Below, one piece after another: positions 41,745 to 53,531 of a DNA stretch of 64,000 nt. Below the pieces are notes generated by a model that was not told where the DNA came from, did not search any database, and saw nothing but the letters and a program-made list of their open reading frames with translations. The position numbers and the translations under genes were made by a program. The DNA is from Pagrus major (Eukaryota; Chordata; Actinopteri; Spariformes; Sparidae). The first letter of the stretch is position 1; each line of letters starts with the position of its first letter. Location: positions 25,161,806 to 25,225,805 of the forward strand of contig NC_133215.1 in NCBI RefSeq assembly GCF_040436345.1, read 5' to 3'.

Positions 41745-44051
41745 ATGGAAACCAAGGTGACATCAGAGCCCAAATCCAACGGCGTGATGAATGGAGGAGC
41801 AAGGATTGTTGTGGATGATGATGACGACGTTCTTAGGTATGGAGATCTGGCACTCGCACATTGTAGGAATGATTTAAATGACAGCCGAATGGCACAAGCA
41901 TTCATGTCTGTCCCCTCCTTCCTTTGTCCCTTTCTCTTCCACCAAGTCCAACTGACCTGTCCGAGATATTAGCTGAGGGGACCAAGGAGGCCCACGACAG
42001 AGCAGAGAACTGCCAGTTTGTTAAAGATTTCCTCAGAGGCCGCATCAAGAAGGAGCTGTTTAAGGTTGTCACCCAAAGCTTCTTGCATTTTTGTCACTGA
42101 GGATGTTGGCAAAAATGTCTGTTGGCATAAACTTAGAAACAAACTAACAGCCAGTACAAGTAAAAATAACAGTATCAACATGCACTATCGGGTTAATCAG
42201 TTATTTATGACTGTTTTGATAATGGATACAACCTCTCTCTCCACTTTTGTGGTTTCAGTGTATGTTACAGTTCCCTTTCAGTGATTTTATAGCCATGACA
42301 TTCGATCAGAAACTGAACTACCGAGAAATGAGCAAAATGTAACTTTTAACAATTTGAATATTAAAGTCACCAGTTTGATCCAAAAGCCAGAAAAAGGCAT
42401 ATTAGACATTTCAGTTCACATTTTATCTGTGTCCGTCTCACATTTCTGCCTCTCTGTCTCTGTTGCCAGAGAGGCACAGCAGCTCTATACTTCGTCTACT
42501 CGGCCATGGAGGAGGAGATTGAGAAGAACAGAGACCACCCTGACATCGCCCCGATCTATTTCCCCACAGAGCTGCACCGGCGTGAGGCCCTGGCCCGGGA
42601 CCTGGAGTACTTCTATGGAGAGGACTGGGAGAGCCAGGTCAGCATAAAGCACACAAAGGCTACATGTCAGTCTCAGAACATAACATTTTGAGCCTCAGAC
42701 ATGAACTAGTGCAACTTTAAGCCTACTGACATTCATAGTGTTCTCTCTCTCACAGATCAGCCTCTCTGCAGGCACCAAGCCTTATGTGGACCGCATCCAT
42801 GAGGTGGGAGAGCAGGACCCGTTGCTGCTGGTGGCCCACTCCTACACCCGTTACATGGGTGACCTGTCAGGCGGACAGATCCTCAAGAAAGTGGCCCAGA
42901 GAGCACTGAAGCTCCCCTCGACAGGAGAGGGTCTCAACTTCTACCAGTTTGAGGGCATCCACAGTCACAAGGGCTTCAAGCAGCTTTACCGAAGCAGGAT
43001 GAACGAGCTGGAGCTGGACGCTGAGTCCAAAGAGAGGATTGTGGACGAGTCCAACCGAGCCTTTGGCTTTAACATGATGGTGAGGGAGCAGGGAGGATGG
43101 GTTGGGAGAGTCCTGACGACAGTTGTTCACAGTAAACAGCATGATAGAGAAACACAAGGCAGAAAAAAGACAAGAAGACACATTGTTTGGGGAGGGGAAA
43201 GATAAAGCTATGACAAGAATCTACTTTTATTCTGAAAACAGGTATTCACAGAGCTTGAGGATATTGGGAAGACCGTCAAAGACGAAGTCCAAGATGCAGG
43301 TTTGGGACACAGTCATGCAGAGATCATGGATGGAGGTGATATCAACAAGTGCCCGTACTACGCAGCAAAGATGGGTAAGACATTAATTGAAGGATTCAGG
43401 TCTGAAAGAAGCAGGCATTCCTAACATTATCTACACTAGAGAAATACAGAGGGAAAAAACATTGCTTCCTGAACGTCACATCACTTCAGTAGACTGGATT
43501 TCTAAAATATTTTGAAACTTATTTTCCCATATATTCAGTACTTGGCAATAGGGCCATTTGACTTAGATGTTTTTGAGCTTGTGAGCTTAAGCATGAACTT
43601 TGAATTGTATGTCATTGTCTAAATGTCTAAATGTCATTGTCTTTTAGAAAAGGAGAGTAACCTCAAAACCTTCAGCTTCAATATGAGAACATTTGTACAA
43701 ACACGCCCCTCGGCATGTTAGAGATAGTAAAAAGATTAAACTCAGGCCACTTGAATTATGCACTTATAGTGGAGCATGTGCAGTAGTGAGGTGAATGACA
43801 CTGTAGCTGCACTGAGGAGGCTGAAATCCCTAAAATGACTTGTTGATGATGACTTTCTTTTTGCTCTTTCTGGCCTCATTCCTTTATTCTTTTTGTCTGC
43901 TCCCCATCTCGTCATCTCCACAGTTGCCAGCGGGAATCCCAGTCACGCATGCCAGTTAGCCATGATGCTCCTCAGACATCCACCCTGTCAGATGGCTCTG
44001 GCCGCCTGGGTGGCCTTCCTCGCTGGTTTCACTGCCTGGTACCTCATGTGA
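41745..44051 (+). CDS. hmox2: Heme oxygenase 2
   Basis: Cleaves heme to biliverdin, CO and iron, with electrons from cytochrome P450 reductase, at the ER membrane. Coding exons: 41745-41836, 41947-42064, 42470-42637, 42756-43079, 43242-43374, 43924-44051; 320 aa, near the human 316. The acidic N-terminal extension (VVDDDDDV) precedes [20 protein letters not shown] with the proximal heme-ligand His at about 47. The family signature [18 protein letters not shown] lies at about 150-167. A heme-regulatory Cys-Pro (NKCPYY) is at about 271; the second mammalian Cys-Pro is replaced (HACQLA), so only one HRM remains. Residues 300-320 form a C-terminal membrane anchor. ATG chosen because exon 2 starts at 41714 with UTR and the frame matches HMOX2. 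The donor after exon 3 (GTTGTC) is weak. The N-terminal extension and Cys-Pro distinguish it from hmox1. Confidence 0.96.
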
Positions 44052-44704: not shown

Positions 44705-47700
44705 ATGAATCACATTCTAACAGTGTTGGTGTTGCTGTGGAGCTCAGGTAGGACTGGGTTGTTTATGTTGGATGTGTGAAATATTCATGGAGATTCAGCT
44801 TAATTATCAACTGCACTGAGCGAGAAAGTGTGCGTGTGTGTGACATTTTGGGAGACTGAGGAGATTTTGTCAGATTGTTACTTCTTCATAGTGCTGTTTG
44901 AGGTTTAAGACTTTTAGGCTTCAGGGTTAACGTCAGAATTAGGTTAAGGCCAAACTGACGTGATGCGTTATGTCAACCAGATGTGTGTGTGTGTGTGTGT
45001 GTGTGGGTGTTTGTAAAATCTAACATGAAATAAAAAAATAAACATACTTCCTTAAAATGGCAACATTGTTAGCCTTGATCATAACTCATAACTTAGACCT
45101 CTCAAAACCTCTAAACTAGAGGTGAGGGTTTGGACTCAAACAATAACTCAAGAAAATAACATGAACAAAAATTAGCCTAGTTTCCCTGACTCAACATTTG
45201 GAGAAACACATGTATTTGCTGTCTTGGTAAAAAGAAGTTACACAGCATTCTCATGTCTGTATGTTAGTAAGGAGGTGATTAGCTTAGCATTAAGACAGGA
45301 AGCAGGGAGGAAACTACCCTTACTCTCTCTCCAGAGTTTGAACAGTTGACTACAAGTACTGATTAACACACATCTCTTTTATATGATCTGTACACAAACT
45401 GAAATGTAAAAATGACAATGTGGCCTTTACGAGGAGTTGTGTTTAGGTATGTTTAGGTATTCCCTCTTTAGGAAGTTAACCCAGATGACATCATCAGGGT
45501 TGGACTTCAGAAAGCTTCCCCAGAGCTACAAACAATATCATACAGCTGTTTTCACAGACTAGTAGTACTTCCTGTGTCAATTTAATGTTTAAAAAAGGAA
45601 CTCCACGGATTTTACATATCAGTCCATTAAGCCTACAGCTCCTGGAAAGTAGACTACTACTGCATAAGTGAAAAAAAGTTGTATGAAGCCTTTCGTGGCT
45701 CCAGAGGGACCTGTGTAAAAATTTTAAGCAAGTTCTAAGAGTCTCACTTGTAACTTTCGCACTTTTGAGCTTTAAATCAGCTTAAGTTGACGGCCCATGC
45801 CTTGCAATTTCCCCATATATAATGCCAGCACAAATGAGGGTTAATTTAGGAACAGCCCTTTGGACTGAAAGAGAAATCAAACTTTTTGAAAGAGACCACT
45901 GTGATGGTAGAGGAGATTGAAGCGAGGCAGCAACTATCATTCAGTGGTCCAAATAGACAGCTGATAGCCAAACATGCAGTTTGCAGATTGTTCATAAAGT
46001 TGCAAAGTTCACCACAGGCTTGGATGCATTTGTGTCTCCAGCTGCAACACCCCTACATAACCAGCAGGAAAATCATTCAGCAGAGTCTGTAACATCCAAG
46101 TGCTTTTCATGCTTGTTTATTCTTTGACCTTTTTCTCCTCAGGCCTCCAGGCAGAAGAAAATGATTCACCAGGTAATTTGAAAATAACAAAAAGAGAAAG
46201 TCATGTTTTACTTTCAGTCTCCTCTAATCTTTACAGACTGTATATTCATGTTGCTTACTCTCTTGTCTCCTTTCAGAACCTGGCAACATCAGGTTGATGG
46301 GAGGAGCCACCCGCTGTGCAGGTGGACTGGAAATGAAACTCTACAATGGCTGGAAACCAGTGGATGACCCTTCGTTTGGCTGGAACCTGAGAACAGCAGA
46401 TGTAGTGTGTAGACAGCTGGACTGCGGATCTGTTGTGTCAGCAAAACTCAAAGACAGTTACGTAGCAAGACATGTATGGAAGATAAATGCTTACAATGTT
46501 CAGTCTAGATCTGCACTGACAGCAACTGCATCAATGAAGCCCAAATATTCCCTCACCAGCTTGGAGATCACGTGCTCAGGTAACACGATCAGTGTCACCA
46601 TCCATGATGATCACCTTTAAAGTATTTCTCCTTCAAAGCCATCATTGAAACTATTTTTTCTTTTTACATGCTGTATGTTTGTATTCTTGCTTGTAGACAG
46701 TGGTGGAAGAAGTAGTCAGATCCTATGCTTAAGGAAAAGTAATATCACAATGAAAAAAGTCCTCATTCTGCCACAGAATGGCTCCTGGTGGTACGACAAC
46801 AGATACTTCTGTATCTTTTATCAACAGGGTAAACAGACAGTGGCTGGGGTGGGTGTTATCTTTTAGTATCCTTTGGGCTCTGTGCAGACATCTAACTTCA
46901 CCGATGTCACTGCTGCTCTGCAGATGGGTACCAGTGATGTTCTGGACCATTTTAATCACTCACTGTAGAGCCCTCCTGTCCTTGTCCATTGTTGATTTGC
47001 TCCTGATATGAACACTCATCATTGTTTGTAATGCGATGATGGTGGTGTCGTCCACATGCTTCACTCTAGAGTTCTCTTGATGTCTGGTAGTGCAGTCATG
47101 TCGTGTACGGTGTGAACAGGAGGGGGCTGAGCACACAGCCCTGGAGTGCTCCAGTATTGAACAGGTGTTGAGGAGGTGTCCAGTATCCATTTGCAGTATG
47201 TTGTGCTCAAGCTCTGAGTGTGAAGTTTTCCAATCAGCTTCATGGGTGAGATTGTATTGAATGCTAAGCTGAAGTCAACAAACAGCATTTTGATGTAGCT
47301 GTTGTTATTTTCAAAGTGTGTGAAGACTGAGTGGAGGGCAGTGGATATGTATATATAATGTGCTCTTTTGACAGCTGTCAAATACACTGACAGGCCTGAA
47401 CATTAAAACCACTGACAGGTGAAGTGAATAACATTAATCATCTCGTCGTCATATGAAATGCTCTTCTGTGCAACCTTAGGTTCTCGCATTCTTGTGGATG
47501 CTTGACATGCACCCACCCAGCCACCGTTGCAGACCAAGTTCACCCCTGCACGGCAATCCCCGATGACAGCGGGTCATCCATTAGGACAATGTGCCTTGAC
47601 ACACGCAAAACCTGCTCAGGAATGACCCAAGGAGCGTGATAGAGCTCAAGGCGTTAACCTGACCTGCAAATTCCTCAGATCCCAATTCGATCAAGCATCC

Positions 47701-50323
47701 GTGGTAGCTCCTGGAAAATGTGAGATCTATGGAGGCCCCTTACAATATGATGTCATAATAAACAGATTTGGAAAGTTTTATGTCAGATCAAAAGTCATGG
47801 GGTCAATACCTGCAACAACAACAGAGTGTGGTGCAGATGAATAAGTAGTGACGTAGCTTAGCATGATATATAGTTTATTTTTAGCTTCTTTGCTGTTGGT
47901 TTGTTTGTTGTTGTTCATATTTTTCAGTCAAATTTCTGTTTGTTACTCTTGTAATAGTGCTCTCTCTCAAACTCTCTCTCTCCCTGTGCAGAGTCTGTCA
48001 GGCTGGTGAATGGGACTACTCTGTGTTCAGGCAGAGTGGAGGTCAAAGCTAACCAGTCATGGTCCTCAGTCTGTGAAGGTGATTTTGACTGGCAGAATGC
48101 AGAGGTAGTCTGCAGAGAGCTCGGCTGTGGGGCTCCTTTAGACCTGGTTCTCTGTGAAAACACAAAGGCTCTCAAGTGGATGAACAAGTTTAAGTGCAGA
48201 GGTGCAGAGTCCACTCTCCTGGACTGTGAAAGTTATGAGTCAGCTAGAACTACCTGCTCACCTATAGGAGTCACCTGTTCAGGTAAAGGAGAAGTTACTG
48301 CTGTCACTCTCAATAAATACTTTCTTTAGAAATCAGTCTCACCTTAAGGTCCATTTAGTAGCTGTTCTGGAGCTTTAGATCACATGAAATGATAATCTGT
48401 AGATGGAGTTCGCTAAATTTTATGACTCAAATCAAATTTTACCCCAACCCTTGTTTTTGAGTGCCCCCTTGCCTCTCAGAACAGAGTCACAAGATGTAGT
48501 GGTTGTAATCTCCCTGTATGAAATGGTATAACCCTTCAAGACCCTCATATGTCATCAGTAGTAGACCGGACATATGCCGTCTTCAGTGGTGGTGATTTCT
48601 CTGGCATTACTGATATGCTAACAAAAAGCTCTGGTACAGTCACTAAATGGACCTTGCAAAGAAGATTGTTTTCTTTACTGTCTCCAAGCTCACTTTTTTT
48701 TTGTCTCTGTTCAGAGCCTGATAATGTCCAGTTGTTGGAAGGAAGCAGCCGCTGCACTGGTAGACTGGAAATGAAACTCCAGGGTGACTGGAAACCAGTG
48801 GATGGTGCGAAGGGAGACCTGAAGTCTGCAGCTTTAGTGTGCACACAGCTGAAATGTGGTTCTGTGGTTTCAACTGCATTAAAGCCTTCTGCAGTGAAAC
48901 CTGTGTGGGGGATCATTTCCTCCAGAGTTCAAGCTGGATCTGCACTGAGGGAGTGTGTATCAACAAGGCCCTGGCACTCCCGGTCCAGCCTGGAGATCAC
49001 CTGCTCAGGTAACACCTTCAGTGGCATCAGCCATGATTCTAATTCTTACAGTTGTTATTCATCACAGCAACTGCTAGAGGTTTTAAGTGATCCAGGACAA
49101 AGGTCATTATTGCTTCAAACTAGACTAGATTTGCAAGCTTTTGACCCAGTGTCTTTGTTCTAATGGGGAGTTTTGATTGTCAGGACAAACTAGTGTCTTC
49201 TCACTCAACTATCTCCCTTGTCTTTACAGATGTGTTGTATCAGCCAACAATCTCCGTCTCTCCCTCCATCGGTCGGGTCGATGAGTTGTCCATCTTCACC
49301 ATCAGCTGCTCCATTAAACCACAGTACCCAGGAGGCTCTTTCCAGCTGACCCTCACCACTGCCAACACAATGCAAAACTACACCCAGAAAGCCGTCAATC
49401 ACATCGCCCACTTCCTGTTTCCTTCTGCAAACCGTGGCCACCAAGGGAACTACAGCTGTGTTTATCAGATCGACGTTTTCTCTCATAAGTTGTCCTCAGC
49501 GAGCCGCCCACTTTCTCTCATCATCTCAGGTAATGTGAAGGAAGGTGCAAAGCTGGGTCAGACAGGGACATGTGCCACTAGTTGTCTTTACATTCAAGAT
49601 TTTGAAAAAATATCTCTAATGACAAAAACAGGGCATGGAGAGCTTTAATCAGCAGTTTCCAGGTTAAAAAAAAAAGGAAAAAAAAGTTGTGCTATAAAAG
49701 TAAATATAAATATAAATAAATATCAACTCCTGCCACTGGCAATGAGTGTGAATCAGGCCATTAGTGTGACTAATGTATAGTCACACTAATGCAGCATGTA
49801 CATGACAAACATGGGAAAGACTATATTTTTTTTCTCTTAAGATCAAGTTTCTGCAGATTTTTTAATTTAAATTACTAATTAATTACTTTGAATGAATAAG
49901 ACAGTTGCACACTATACAAAGGAAATTCAATTTTGTGATATTAGAGGTTTAAGGCATCTTATATTATATTATTAAGGCTGTTGTATTGTGACATTCCATG
50001 ATTTGATTTGATTGTTGTGAATCTCTTTCAGACTCTCCAGTAGTTTACATCCCAAGATTCACTGTCCTGCTGCTCACTTTGGCCTTGTTTGTGTTTGCCA
50101 TTTGTTTCCACAAAAAGGTAGGCCAACTGTGCTCACAAAAATGTTCTTAATCCGTATGCAGTGTGTGGGGAGTGCCTTAAAGACATCTGCGCCTATGTCC
50201 TTTCAGGCCACCAGGGGGCAGCAACCGGGAGGCCAGGAGAAGCTTGACCATTATGACCTTGGTGCTTCCAGAGCTGAGGGTTTGCTAAATGAAGAGGCAG
50301 CAGCCCAGAGAAGAGATCTCTAA
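44705..50323 (+). CDS. Membrane receptor with three SRCR domains and one Ig-like domain
   Basis: Eight exons, all internal junctions phase 1 until the last: 44705-44747, 46143-46172, 46277-46579, 47992-48282, 48715-49008, 49230-49529, 50032-50117, 50207-50323; 487 aa. Exons 1-2 give a signal peptide (MNHILTVLVLLWSS then GLQA). Exons 3, 4 and 5 each encode one SRCR domain. Exon 6 is an Ig-like domain with Cys in FTISCSI and GNYSCVY. Exon 7 is a transmembrane segment (TVLLLTLALFVFAICF), and exon 8 a 39-residue tail with one Tyr (DHYDLG) and no ITAM or ITIM. SRCR 2 has all eight group B cysteines plus one extra; SRCR 1 has four and SRCR 3 five. The build recalls the CD5/CD6/CD163 class of scavenger-type immune receptors. 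Ligand unknown and no one-to-one mammalian orthologue recognised. Starts 654 bp after the hmox2 stop, same strand. Confidence 0.85.
44982..45004 (+). repeat. (GT)n microsatellite
   Basis: GT alternation in intron 1 of the SRCR-Ig gene. Confidence 0.95.
45230..45660 (+). repeat. Diverged dispersed fish repeat in SRCR-Ig intron 1
   Basis: TCATGTCTGTATGTTAGTAA, GATTAGCTTAGCATTAAGAC and TACACAAACTGAAATGTAAA follow the same order as the repeat family of 37875-38000, extending further into its body. No coding. Confidence 0.5.
46697..46775 (+). mobile_element. hAT-like element end fragment in SRCR-Ig intron 3
   Basis: ACAGTGGTGGAAGAAGTAGT, then CAGATCCTATGCTTAAGGAA, resembles the common fish hAT-type start (CAGTGGTGGAAGAAGTACTC, as remembered). 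Ends against the LINE relic. Confidence 0.55.
46840..47387 (-). pseudogene. Non-LTR retrotransposon reverse transcriptase relic
   Basis: On the - strand, broken frames give in order MLFVDFSLAFNTISP (RT motif normally FVDFSSAFNTI), a degraded QGCVLSP region, HVDDTTIIAL (normally FADDTTV, the catalytic DD block), then GTHLQSSSDIGEVRCLHRAQ and RILKDNTHPSHCLFTLL (the typical fish LINE C-terminus, SILKDPTHPSHxLF). The order fits one element inserted antisense to the host gene. Several frameshifts make it inactive. Clade not assigned. Confidence 0.75.
47388..47745 (+). mobile_element. Tc1-like relic, internally deleted
   Basis: Begins GAACATTAAAACCACTGACA followed by GGTGAAGTGAATAACATTAA (element start), then jumps to transposase-derived text: TTGCAGACCAAGTTCACCCC, CTGCTCAGGAATGACCC, AAATTCCTCAGATCCCAATT, CGATCAAGCATCCGTGG. 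The last is the DNA of the P-D-x-N-P-I-E-H-x-W block, diverged. Most of the transposase is missing. Same family as 36178-36275. Confidence 0.7.
49760..49790. repeat. Perfect 13-bp hairpin
   Basis: ATTAGTGTGACTA, then ATGTA, then TAGTCACACTAAT: a perfect stem of 13 bp with a 5-nt loop, in the intron between the Ig and transmembrane exons of the receptor gene. Confidence 0.9.
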
Positions 50324-51366: not shown

Positions 51367-52903
51367 TTACTTTAAAGTTCCAAACACCTTCTCAAAACCC
51401 TGTCTGTCCACCACCTGTCCAAACAGTGTGGTGAAATACAATGTCTCTGGACTGCTGTATCTCTTTAGTTTCCATATTGTCTCGTTTACGGCGTCTCCTG
51501 TATCCCCGATGGTCATTACATCTGACACAGGCAGGTACATGTCACAGCGTCTACCCCAGAAGTTGAGGTGGGACACTTTGAGTGTGGTCTGGGACGGGTC
51601 CAGGTACATCATCCCAACAACCCTCCTGAAGAAGTGACTGGCAATGTACAGCATGGCACCAGCGAACAGCGCTATCCCTGTTGTGTAGCTGACAAGAAAG
51701 AAGGAGACTTGTCCTTGGAAGTAGAAGAAAAACACTGGGGGCAAGATGACCACTGTGATCGCAGTCTGGAGCAGTTTGAGCCTGGACACGGCTCTGAGGT
51801 GCTTAATGTGTGGCAGCTTGTAAATCAGAGTGTATTTCTCTGTGGACAAGTCAGAGTACCTGACCAGGCCTGTGACTGTAGGTATAAGGGGTCCATGGAA
51901 GCTCTGCTGGATTGGTGTGTGACCCGGTGAATGAGCCTGCACCACCCCATTAGGTATCCGACCTGTGAGTAGGCATGATCCTCTGGTGCAGGACAGAATG
52001 CTGGAGGTTAACCTGCGATGGAGCACTGACCTGATCTGTGGGGAAATGACAGATATATTTGACCAAAACCATTCGCAAATTGATTAATTGATTGACAGAA
52101 AATGTATGGGCAAAATTTGGATATATTTTAATTATGCCAACTCTGGTTCCAGTATATAAATATTTGCTGTATTTCTTAGTCTTCTATGATAGCAAACTGA
52201 GTATCTCTGGGATTTTGACTGTAGGACAGACAAAACAAGCGAAGTGAGGGAACCTCGCTGGGCACTTTTTACTATTTTCTGACATTTTACCTGCCAAACT
52301 ATCAAGCAACTAAATAATCAGCAGATAAATAAATACATTACATTTTTATTATACAAATGAATACAACACAGCATAATATATAACCCCCACTAGCTTAACA
52401 TGAGAAAGTTTAAACAACATTTTAACATTAATAGTAGGGTTACTGAGTTGAATTGCATGACATTATATATTGTGTTTGTGTGTAATTATGGCGATCCTTT
52501 GGGCATAACATATGCATAACATCATGGCTGCAGTTGCACTTTGTATTACGTAGATGAGTAATAGTTTTTCAATTCAGATTCAGTCCCCAATGGGAAATCC
52601 TCCTTGCAACCAGATGGATAATAGTATGAGCAAATTAATATAAGCAATAAAGCATATGCACCCGTTTTGTTTTAATTAACTTAACTTCTTCATTCGATAT
52701 AAGGATGGCTGAATAATAACCATGAACATTTATTTTTTAAGCATAAAAATTAGTGGTAGGTTGGCTACAGACCTTGGCTGTCATACATCCCAGGTAAAGC
52801 AACATTTAGCTTATGTGGCTAATTTAACTTTCATATCATGTTATGATGTCTTGCAAAAGAGTGACAGTTATGATAGAGTTTGAGGAAGAACGAGGCTCAC
52901 CAT
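51367..52903 (-). CDS. tmem186: Transmembrane protein 186
   Basis: A mitochondrial inner-membrane protein that in mammals joins the MCIA complex in respiratory complex I assembly. Two coding exons on -: 52903-52901 (ATG alone, donor ATG/GTGAGC) and 52035-51367 (acceptor TTTCCCCACAG); 223 aa against 213 in human. The joined start reads MIRSVLHRRLTSSILSC, a basic amphipathic N-terminus as expected of a mitochondrial presequence. Exon 2 alone has no early ATG; only the splice supplies one in frame. The family core is clear: RLKLLQTAITVVILPPVFFF, a second hydrophobic stretch (FFLVSYTTGIALFAGAMLYI), FRRVVGMMYLD, VSHLNFWGRRCDMYLPVSDV, and the end GFEKVFGTLK. The gene lies head to head with gde1 and tail to tail with the SRCR-Ig gene. 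Confidence 0.93.
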
Positions 52904-53531
52904 GATCGCCGACAGAAGAAGGAAAACACAGAAACACGAATCTTCTTTTTAGAAATGAGAGACATACCAAAGGCAACACTTGCAGAGGCTAGCTAACATG
53001 AAGCATAATGTCAGCTACACCATGACCCGGAAGTACTCCACAATGTTAACCTTTTTTAATGTTTTGTTTGCTCGTGTGCCCCCTAGCGGGAACGTTGTAC
53101 ATTATCACTTTAGATATACTTATTTAAGTTTTTATTAAACTCTCTCTTGAACTTGAATCTGTAAGTGTGGCTGTAAAATAATTCCGGTTTGCGGTGACGA
53201 CACGTGACGTGCGGCAGAGCTGTCACTTCCGCCACAGAGAGCAACAAGCTGGTAAACAGACCGACACTCTGGTATCGGTTTAAATGTCAGACCAGTTTTG
53301 CAGGTTTTCTCCGCTGTATTATTTATCTTATTATTTATCGGCTGCAGTAACTAGTTAATGTTGCCACTAGGGTCGACAGAGCATGACTTTATCTGAAACA
53401 CAGCCTTTGAAGAGCGCGGCGGGACTGGCAGCTAACATTAGCTAACGTTAGAGGAGTCCGGCGGTGCATTATCTACCGGGCGGTGCTGCTTCCTGTTCTC
53501 TGACAGGTCCGAGAGACTGAGGGGGACCACA
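52904..53531. promoter_or_regulatory. Shared tmem186/gde1 bidirectional promoter region
   Basis: The 628 bp between the start codons of two divergent genes. An ETS-type CCGGAAGT is at 53027-53034 and an E-box CACGTGAC at 53201-53208 inside GACACGTGACGTGCGG; another ETS-like TCACTTCCG is at 53223. The gde1 side is GC-rich and no TATA box is seen. Such spacing and motifs are typical of housekeeping bidirectional promoters; exact start sites are not determinable here. Confidence 0.6.

Follow-up and report, generated by a model that had tools for sequence, protein, structure and literature searches.

The window analysed here, the whole stretch of 64,000 nucleotides of Pagrus major DNA at contig C1:25161806-25225805, contains an intact gene for a predicted membrane receptor with three SRCR domains, an Ig domain and a transmembrane segment. 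On balance it is probable, in our judgement, that this gene belongs to a multi-copy fish family in which a string of SRCR recognition domains stands on a leukocyte-receptor-type base and is coupled to an ITAM adaptor. An ordered loss of cysteines from the first and third SRCR domains, on which an earlier sequence-only reading had centred, appears to be mostly a family trait of a known type; the new points would be the leukocyte-receptor-complex-like Ig domain, a weak resemblance, and a transmembrane arginine kept in six of seven copies. In our view the build itself, SRCR on a leukocyte receptor with a transmembrane arginine, and two odd cysteines of the window copy hold more interest than the cysteines that were lost.

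Eight open exons on the forward strand (44705-50323), with GT-AG borders at all introns, join into a frame of 1464 nt encoding 487 aa, and the product reads in order leader, three SRCR domains (D1, D2 and D3), Ig domain, transmembrane segment and short tail. The SRCR-SRCR-SRCR-Ig-transmembrane gene proposed earlier was thereby found whole, with Pfam matches to SRCR three times and to Ig_2 once. SRCR domains like D1 and D3 are named A-type and those like D2 B-type; C1 to C8 denote the SRCR cysteines, and contigs are always called by that word. The features of the gene, all on the forward strand, are:

44705..44747, forward strand: exon 1, ATG and start of a putative leader (signal peptide), with a GT donor and an N-terminus that is hydrophobic by eye
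46143..46172, forward strand: exon 2, a 30-nt mini-exon with the remainder of the leader; AG/GT borders, phase 1
46277..46579, forward strand: exon 3, SRCR domain 1 (D1), A-type; Pfam SRCR 39.3 bits; C1, C3, C4 and C8 only
47992..48282, forward strand: exon 4, SRCR domain 2 (D2), B-type; Pfam SRCR 76.3 bits; eight cysteines and one extra
48715..49008, forward strand: exon 5, SRCR domain 3 (D3), A-type; Pfam SRCR 40.6 bits; C1, C3, C4, C6 and C8
49230..49529, forward strand: exon 6, Ig domain, leukocyte-receptor-complex-like with weak scores; Pfam Ig_2 36.3 bits; PDB matches
50032..50117, forward strand: exon 7, transmembrane segment with arginine as exon residue 9; hydropathy 2.28 over 19 residues
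50207..50323, forward strand: exon 8, short cytoplasmic tail and stop codon; no ITIM by pattern

Each domain was scored alone (Pfam cut-offs 26.1 bits for SRCR and 27 bits for Ig_2), and all three SRCR domains lay above the curated cut-off of the superfamily profile. The SRCR and Ig exons are in phase 1 at their 5' and 3' ends alike, and phase-1 borders on both sides of an exon are typical for mosaic extracellular proteins. A single exon per domain is a trait of group B SRCR domains (PMC3100851), and D1, D2 and D3 each occupy one exon (exons 3, 4 and 5). One polyadenylation-type signal was found in the stretch scanned, 573 nt 3' of the stop codon. Searches at E up to 10 gave no further convincing SRCR or Ig matches in the window, just short weak ones. 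Upstream of the gene lies a heme oxygenase exon (42708-43202, forward strand), and downstream, on the opposite strand, an ORF of the TMEM70/TMEM186/TMEM223 family (51370-52083, reverse strand). An ORF within intron 3 (47061-47402, reverse strand) resembles by eye a LINE reverse transcriptase fragment (FVDFSLAFNTI). The start of what we take from its letters to be a GDE1-like gene, near position 53500, had no Pfam match to that effect.

The four bonds of SRCR domains are described as C1-C4, C2-C7, C3-C8 and C5-C6 (PMC3100851; PMC11525585), in agreement with the pattern quoted in the sequence-only reading, and the cysteine count of group B is given as 6-8 (PMC2906472). With the columns assigned by alignment to CD163 SRCR1, SRCR3 and SRCR5, D1 was found to keep C1, C3, C4 and C8, and D3 to keep C1, C3, C4, C6 and C8, while D2 holds the full eight and one extra cysteine between C4 and C5. 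D2 thus has all eight cysteines of group B, D1 has four and D3 five, and the states first read were exact in all three domains. The motif WKPVD, noted in place of C2, was also borne out, column C2 being D in D1 and D3 alike. Were four of eight cysteines kept by chance, 6 of the 70 possible sets would comprise two whole bonds, and with five kept 24 of 56 sets would include two whole bonds, so that the D1 pattern by itself is no strong argument. The losses in D1 and D3 are likewise not independent evidence, because these domains are 51% identical to each other (D2 is 27-29% identical to either). The idea that D1 and D3 lost cysteines independently and convergently, as a sign of co-ordination, was therefore rejected, given this identity and the absence of C2 and C7 throughout the A group. 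The two domains were sisters in the tree, without firm support (71/87), and their codons at cysteine C5 differ (AAT in D1, AGA in D3), so that one loss and two are not separable. Structure models built from three-row alignments had a mean pLDDT of 47.3 for D1 and 47.6 for D2; since D2, an ordinary SRCR domain, scored no better than D1, the models are silent on stability. Foldseek returned 101 matches for D1 at E <= 10, none at E <= 0.001 and with no SRCR structure among the best 50 listed, and 15 for D2, led by CD163 and CD5L, again none at E <= 0.001.

The genome searched (786 Mb, 25 contigs) holds at least 147 SRCR matches. D3 as query gave 60 matches, three of which are the window gene's own domains, with A-type domains among them on contigs C1, C2, C5, C12 and C20. 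Modules of the window gene recur at six further places in the same genome, and the loci compared were those at contig C1:34.85 Mb, on contigs C2, C5 and C12, and at two places on contig C20. The gene had been put forward as the best candidate for an undescribed lineage-specific receptor; it does not stand alone, being one copy of a dispersed multi-copy family with relatives on several contigs. The predicted copies are arranged as follows:

Contig C5 copy: predicted A-(B-A)x4-Ig-transmembrane-tail, ordered by position
Contig C2 copies: two predicted Ig-transmembrane ends, with alternating A and B domains upstream
Contig C12 copy: predicted A-B-A-A-Ig-transmembrane
Contig C20, two near-identical places: predicted A and B domains, then transmembrane segment and tail; no Ig detected

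An Ig exon was sought in the contig C20 copies and none was detected, the distance between the D3-like exon and the transmembrane segment being ~284 nt in one of them. These two SRCR clusters (contig C20:26.93 Mb and contig C20:27.23 Mb) are near-identical, in opposite orientation and ~0.3 Mb apart, and could reflect either a recent duplication or a duplicate made by the assembly. An A-type domain at contig C2:1932331-1932633 carries an in-frame TGA. Many SRCR matches of the genome occur as halves (profile ~1-53 and 54-100), as if encoded by two exons, on contigs C15, C16 and C6, at contig C20:20.3 Mb and elsewhere. No relatives were found in IMG/VR and GTDB genomes, as expected for a fish gene.

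For the cysteine table, rows were hand-picked by position and score. The A rows were 28 of the 60 D3 matches, window D1 and D3 included, of which one fragment without its 3' half was dropped and 27 were used; the 15 B rows, window D2 included, were drawn from the at least 147 SRCR matches at the same loci. A B-like domain with an internal deletion (contig C2, ~1923450), shorter pieces and the contig C7 loci were not used, the last having been fetched and then excluded as short or weak matches. Because they were picked for likeness to D3, the A rows lean to its cysteine pattern, by which retention of cysteines C5 and C6 is not forced. C2 and C7 were each absent from every one of the 27 full A domains, two of them from the window and 25 from elsewhere, and the loss of these two cysteines consequently belongs to the family; a full eight-cysteine set was found in 0 of the 25 relatives of D1 and D3 in the same genome. 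Cysteines C5 and C6 are both kept in 24 of the 25 A domains outside the window, giving these six cysteines, and the exception (contig C5:15899895-15900176) has Tyr at C6. All eight cysteines are present in 15/15 B domains, with an extra one only in window D2. In the tree, A domains form one clade (100/100) and B domains another (98/95). A single loss in the A-type ancestor would explain the missing C2-C7 bond most simply, and loss of C2 and C7 has described precedents in bovine CD163A SRCR8 and CD163c-α SRCR5, with domains lacking up to three cysteines described in mouse, chicken and platypus (PMC2906472).

As judged from these alignments, what is peculiar to the window copy is a broken C5-C6 bond, with both cysteines gone from D1 and only C5 from D3, together with the extra cysteine of D2. 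Both window A domains are among the three broken ones of 27, for which the value is 0.0085, post hoc and ignoring kinship. Loss of the halves of a bond one after the other would be the ordinary course, D3 and the exceptional contig C5 domain representing a half-way state. Of the co-ordinated loss first suspected, the joint disappearance of C2 and C7 as a bond stands; it is mostly a family trait, and the loss of C5-C6 is uneven.

The base of the receptor was characterized through its Ig domain and transmembrane exon. Alone, the Ig domain gave 31 matches against the PDB at E up to 10, 26 to leukocyte-receptor-complex or Fcγ receptor chains (LILR, PIR-B, NCR1, KIR, CHIR-AB1 or Fcγ receptor) and five to isocitrate dehydrogenase; the best E of the single sequence, 0.00025, belongs to a score that sums several Ig domains, with no stretch passing alone. 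A profile built from six Ig domains of the family found 20 targets at E up to 1: LILR, NCR1, KIR or OSCAR accounted for 18, DSCAM and a phage tail protein for the other two. The best E of the profile (0.0048) is weaker than the 0.00025 of the single sequence, and that of the full-length search was 0.21. The domain thus appears, weakly but consistently, to resemble those of the leukocyte receptor complex (LILR/KIR/NCR1). Its relatives lie on contigs C2 (two), C5, C12 and C1, and the window Ig is ten residues short compared with the contig C2 and C12 copies and seven compared with the contig C5 copy.

The transmembrane exon measures 83-86 nt in the window, contig C5, both contig C2 and contig C12 copies, as taken from the longest consistent acceptor and donor. 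In six of seven copies an arginine was read close to the outer end of the segment: at residue 8-9 of the exon in the window, contig C5 and two contig C2 copies and, for the two contig C20 copies, within the segment that matches. The contig C12 copy has isoleucine where the others have arginine, and no transmembrane segment was found in the 699 nt following the Ig at contig C1:34.85 Mb. An N-terminal transmembrane arginine, as NxxR, is described for the FcRγ partners LILRA2, PIR-A, NCR1, GPVI, OSCAR and FcαR (PMC2413239); the window segment lacks the NxxR motif and has YIPR instead, and its arginine may sit at the membrane edge, with only 17 residues before HKK. A stimulatory fish LITR is reported to pair with FcRγ and CD3ζ-like adaptors, and in a catfish LITR adaptor binding persisted when the charge was neutralised (PMC4810170). 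A pattern scan of the window tail revealed no ITIM, YxxΦ or acidic dileucine. This tail is related to those of contigs C20 and C5 and weakly to those of contig C2; the contig C20 tails, LDYYNL and LDYYYL, fit the ITIM pattern [ILVS]xYxx[LIV]. Following the transmembrane exon of the contig C12 copy, the tail region (L014, contig C12:27799000-27807000, minus strand) is a long cysteine-rich repeat in one open frame, with units like AGRSCCASDAGRSCC, then AGRCGCAPD, perhaps a coding minisatellite.

Given this organization, the product is proposed to be a type I membrane receptor in which an A-B-A string of SRCR domains, extending up to A-(B-A)x4 in the contig C5 copy, would stand on a membrane-proximal leukocyte-receptor-type Ig domain and a transmembrane segment bearing an arginine close to its outer end. 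The string would bind its ligand without the usual cation cluster, and an ITAM adaptor of the FcRγ/CD3ζ type would report binding, its acidic transmembrane residue pairing with the arginine; we infer signalling through an adaptor because no ITIM is present in the window tail. In the window A domains, whose ancestor had the C5-C6 bond, this bond would have disappeared in steps, leaving their folding to rest on C1-C4 and C3-C8. Against the adaptor stand the contig C12 copy, which is without the arginine, and both contig C20 copies, which have the arginine plus an ITIM-like tyrosine site.

A CD163-like membrane scavenger that takes up bacteria or haemoglobin by endocytosis, without any adaptor, is an unlikely but better-placed alternative than those that follow. 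CD163, PIT54 and CD5L, as SRCR matches, head the PDB lists, and the heme oxygenase exon ~1.5 kb upstream (42708-43202) would fit haemoglobin uptake; as a clue to function this neighbourhood was retained solely for the scavenger. Ligand binding by DMBT1 SRCR domains goes through cations held by acidic residues, and it is abolished when two of these residues are mutated (PMC7043408). Counting placed the residues directly behind C2, as an acidic pair, and close to C7-C8, with one acidic residue ahead of C8. The pair position reads DP in D1, EG in D2 and GA in D3, compared with DD in CD163 SRCR3, and the C7-C8 loop was three residues shorter in each window domain. The pair is kept in 0/3 window domains, which makes a scavenger mode dependent on the cation cluster less likely. 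By the same alignment CD163 SRCR1 (NN) and SRCR5 (DS) are also without DD, and so its absence from single domains does not exclude a scavenger. Also against uptake, the tail offers no YxxΦ or acidic dileucine pattern, and most relatives lie on other contigs, the heme oxygenase neighbourhood having been viewed in the window only.

A lymphocyte co-receptor like WC1 of cattle γδ T cells or CD6, binding a protein of a partner cell, is more doubtful still: the window gene has three SRCR domains and a transmembrane segment as does CD6, and by analogy a cod group B SRCR gene annotated m130 is reported to mark a T-cell cluster with putative tcrg/tcrd (PMC9276791), but no tyrosine signalling motif was found in the window tail by pattern.

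In nine comparisons with paralogues, dN/dS of the window exons ranged from 0.38 to 0.69 (D2 0.40-0.45 in three; D3 0.44 and 0.55; Ig 0.38-0.50 in three; D1 0.69). These values argue that the gene is not dead, in which respect the earlier reading held, and by them D1 is, at the level of sequence, the least constrained domain. A copy decaying under relaxed constraint, with D1 and D3 losing bonds, is very improbable: D1 does sit on the longest branch among the three window domains (0.66) and its dN/dS exceeds that of the other eight comparisons, D3 has an orphan C6, and the Ig is shorter by the ten and seven residues given above, but all eight exons are open with intact splice sites, and dN/dS is 0.38-0.55 in D2, D3 and Ig.

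To return to the adaptor-coupled receptor, two odd cysteines are peculiar to the window copy among the domains compared, the extra one in D2 and the C6 left alone in D3. These may be bonded to one another or to a partner, or may remain free. The extra cysteine of D2 agrees in position, between C4 and C5, with C191 of human AIM/CD5L SRCR2, which bonds IgM (PMC11525585). A fuller proposal, to which we give little credence, would be a teleost family of SRCR string, leukocyte-receptor Ig and adaptor-pairing transmembrane base, with an ITIM-like site in the contig C20 members, in which the two odd cysteines of the window copy make up for the lost C5-C6 bond with a new one, either from domain to domain or with a ligand or a partner chain.

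The window gene shares features with several known systems. FCRLS, the mammalian Fc receptor-like scavenger, has Ig domains followed by SRCR, and the window gene differs in placing three SRCR domains first and one Ig next to the membrane. Like the window gene, FCRLS joins Ig to SRCR; it is described as a chimera of FcR-like Ig with type-B SRCR, was called unique as such, and has no transmembrane segment and an exon for one SRCR domain (PMC7940838), whereas the window gene has a transmembrane segment. CD163/M130, M160 and WC1 are alike in their group B SRCR domains, with D2 42% identical to CD163 SRCR5, and some domains of the CD163 family are described as missing C2 and C7 too, with C5 or C6 absent as well in a few; the SRCR domains of bovine CD163A number nine (PMC2906472), in contrast to the three SRCR and one Ig seen here, with A and B alternating. 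Teleost LITR and mammalian receptors of the leukocyte receptor complex (LILRA, NCR1, PIR-A, OSCAR) resemble the window gene in the Ig (weakly), in an arginine towards the outer end of the transmembrane segment and in the short tail; their ligand-side domains are Ig, whereas those of the window gene are SRCR and its transmembrane segment is without NxxR. CD5L/AIM also has three SRCR domains and, in domain 2, a cysteine without a bonding partner between C4 and C5, but is described as soluble, with four bonds per domain (PMC11525585), while the window product is a predicted membrane receptor. A search of open-licence PMC papers gave none that deals with a family of SRCR-Ig membrane receptors in fish. 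In databases, fish proteins with such an architecture are annotated M130-like or DMBT1-like.

The copies form a natural series of the shedding of SRCR disulfides, a single genome containing domains with eight, six, five and four cysteines. The only other described Ig/SRCR-B chimera found in the open-licence PMC literature is the soluble mammalian FCRLS. If the proposed pairing with an adaptor is true, fish would have placed SRCR recognition under leukocyte-receptor signalling.
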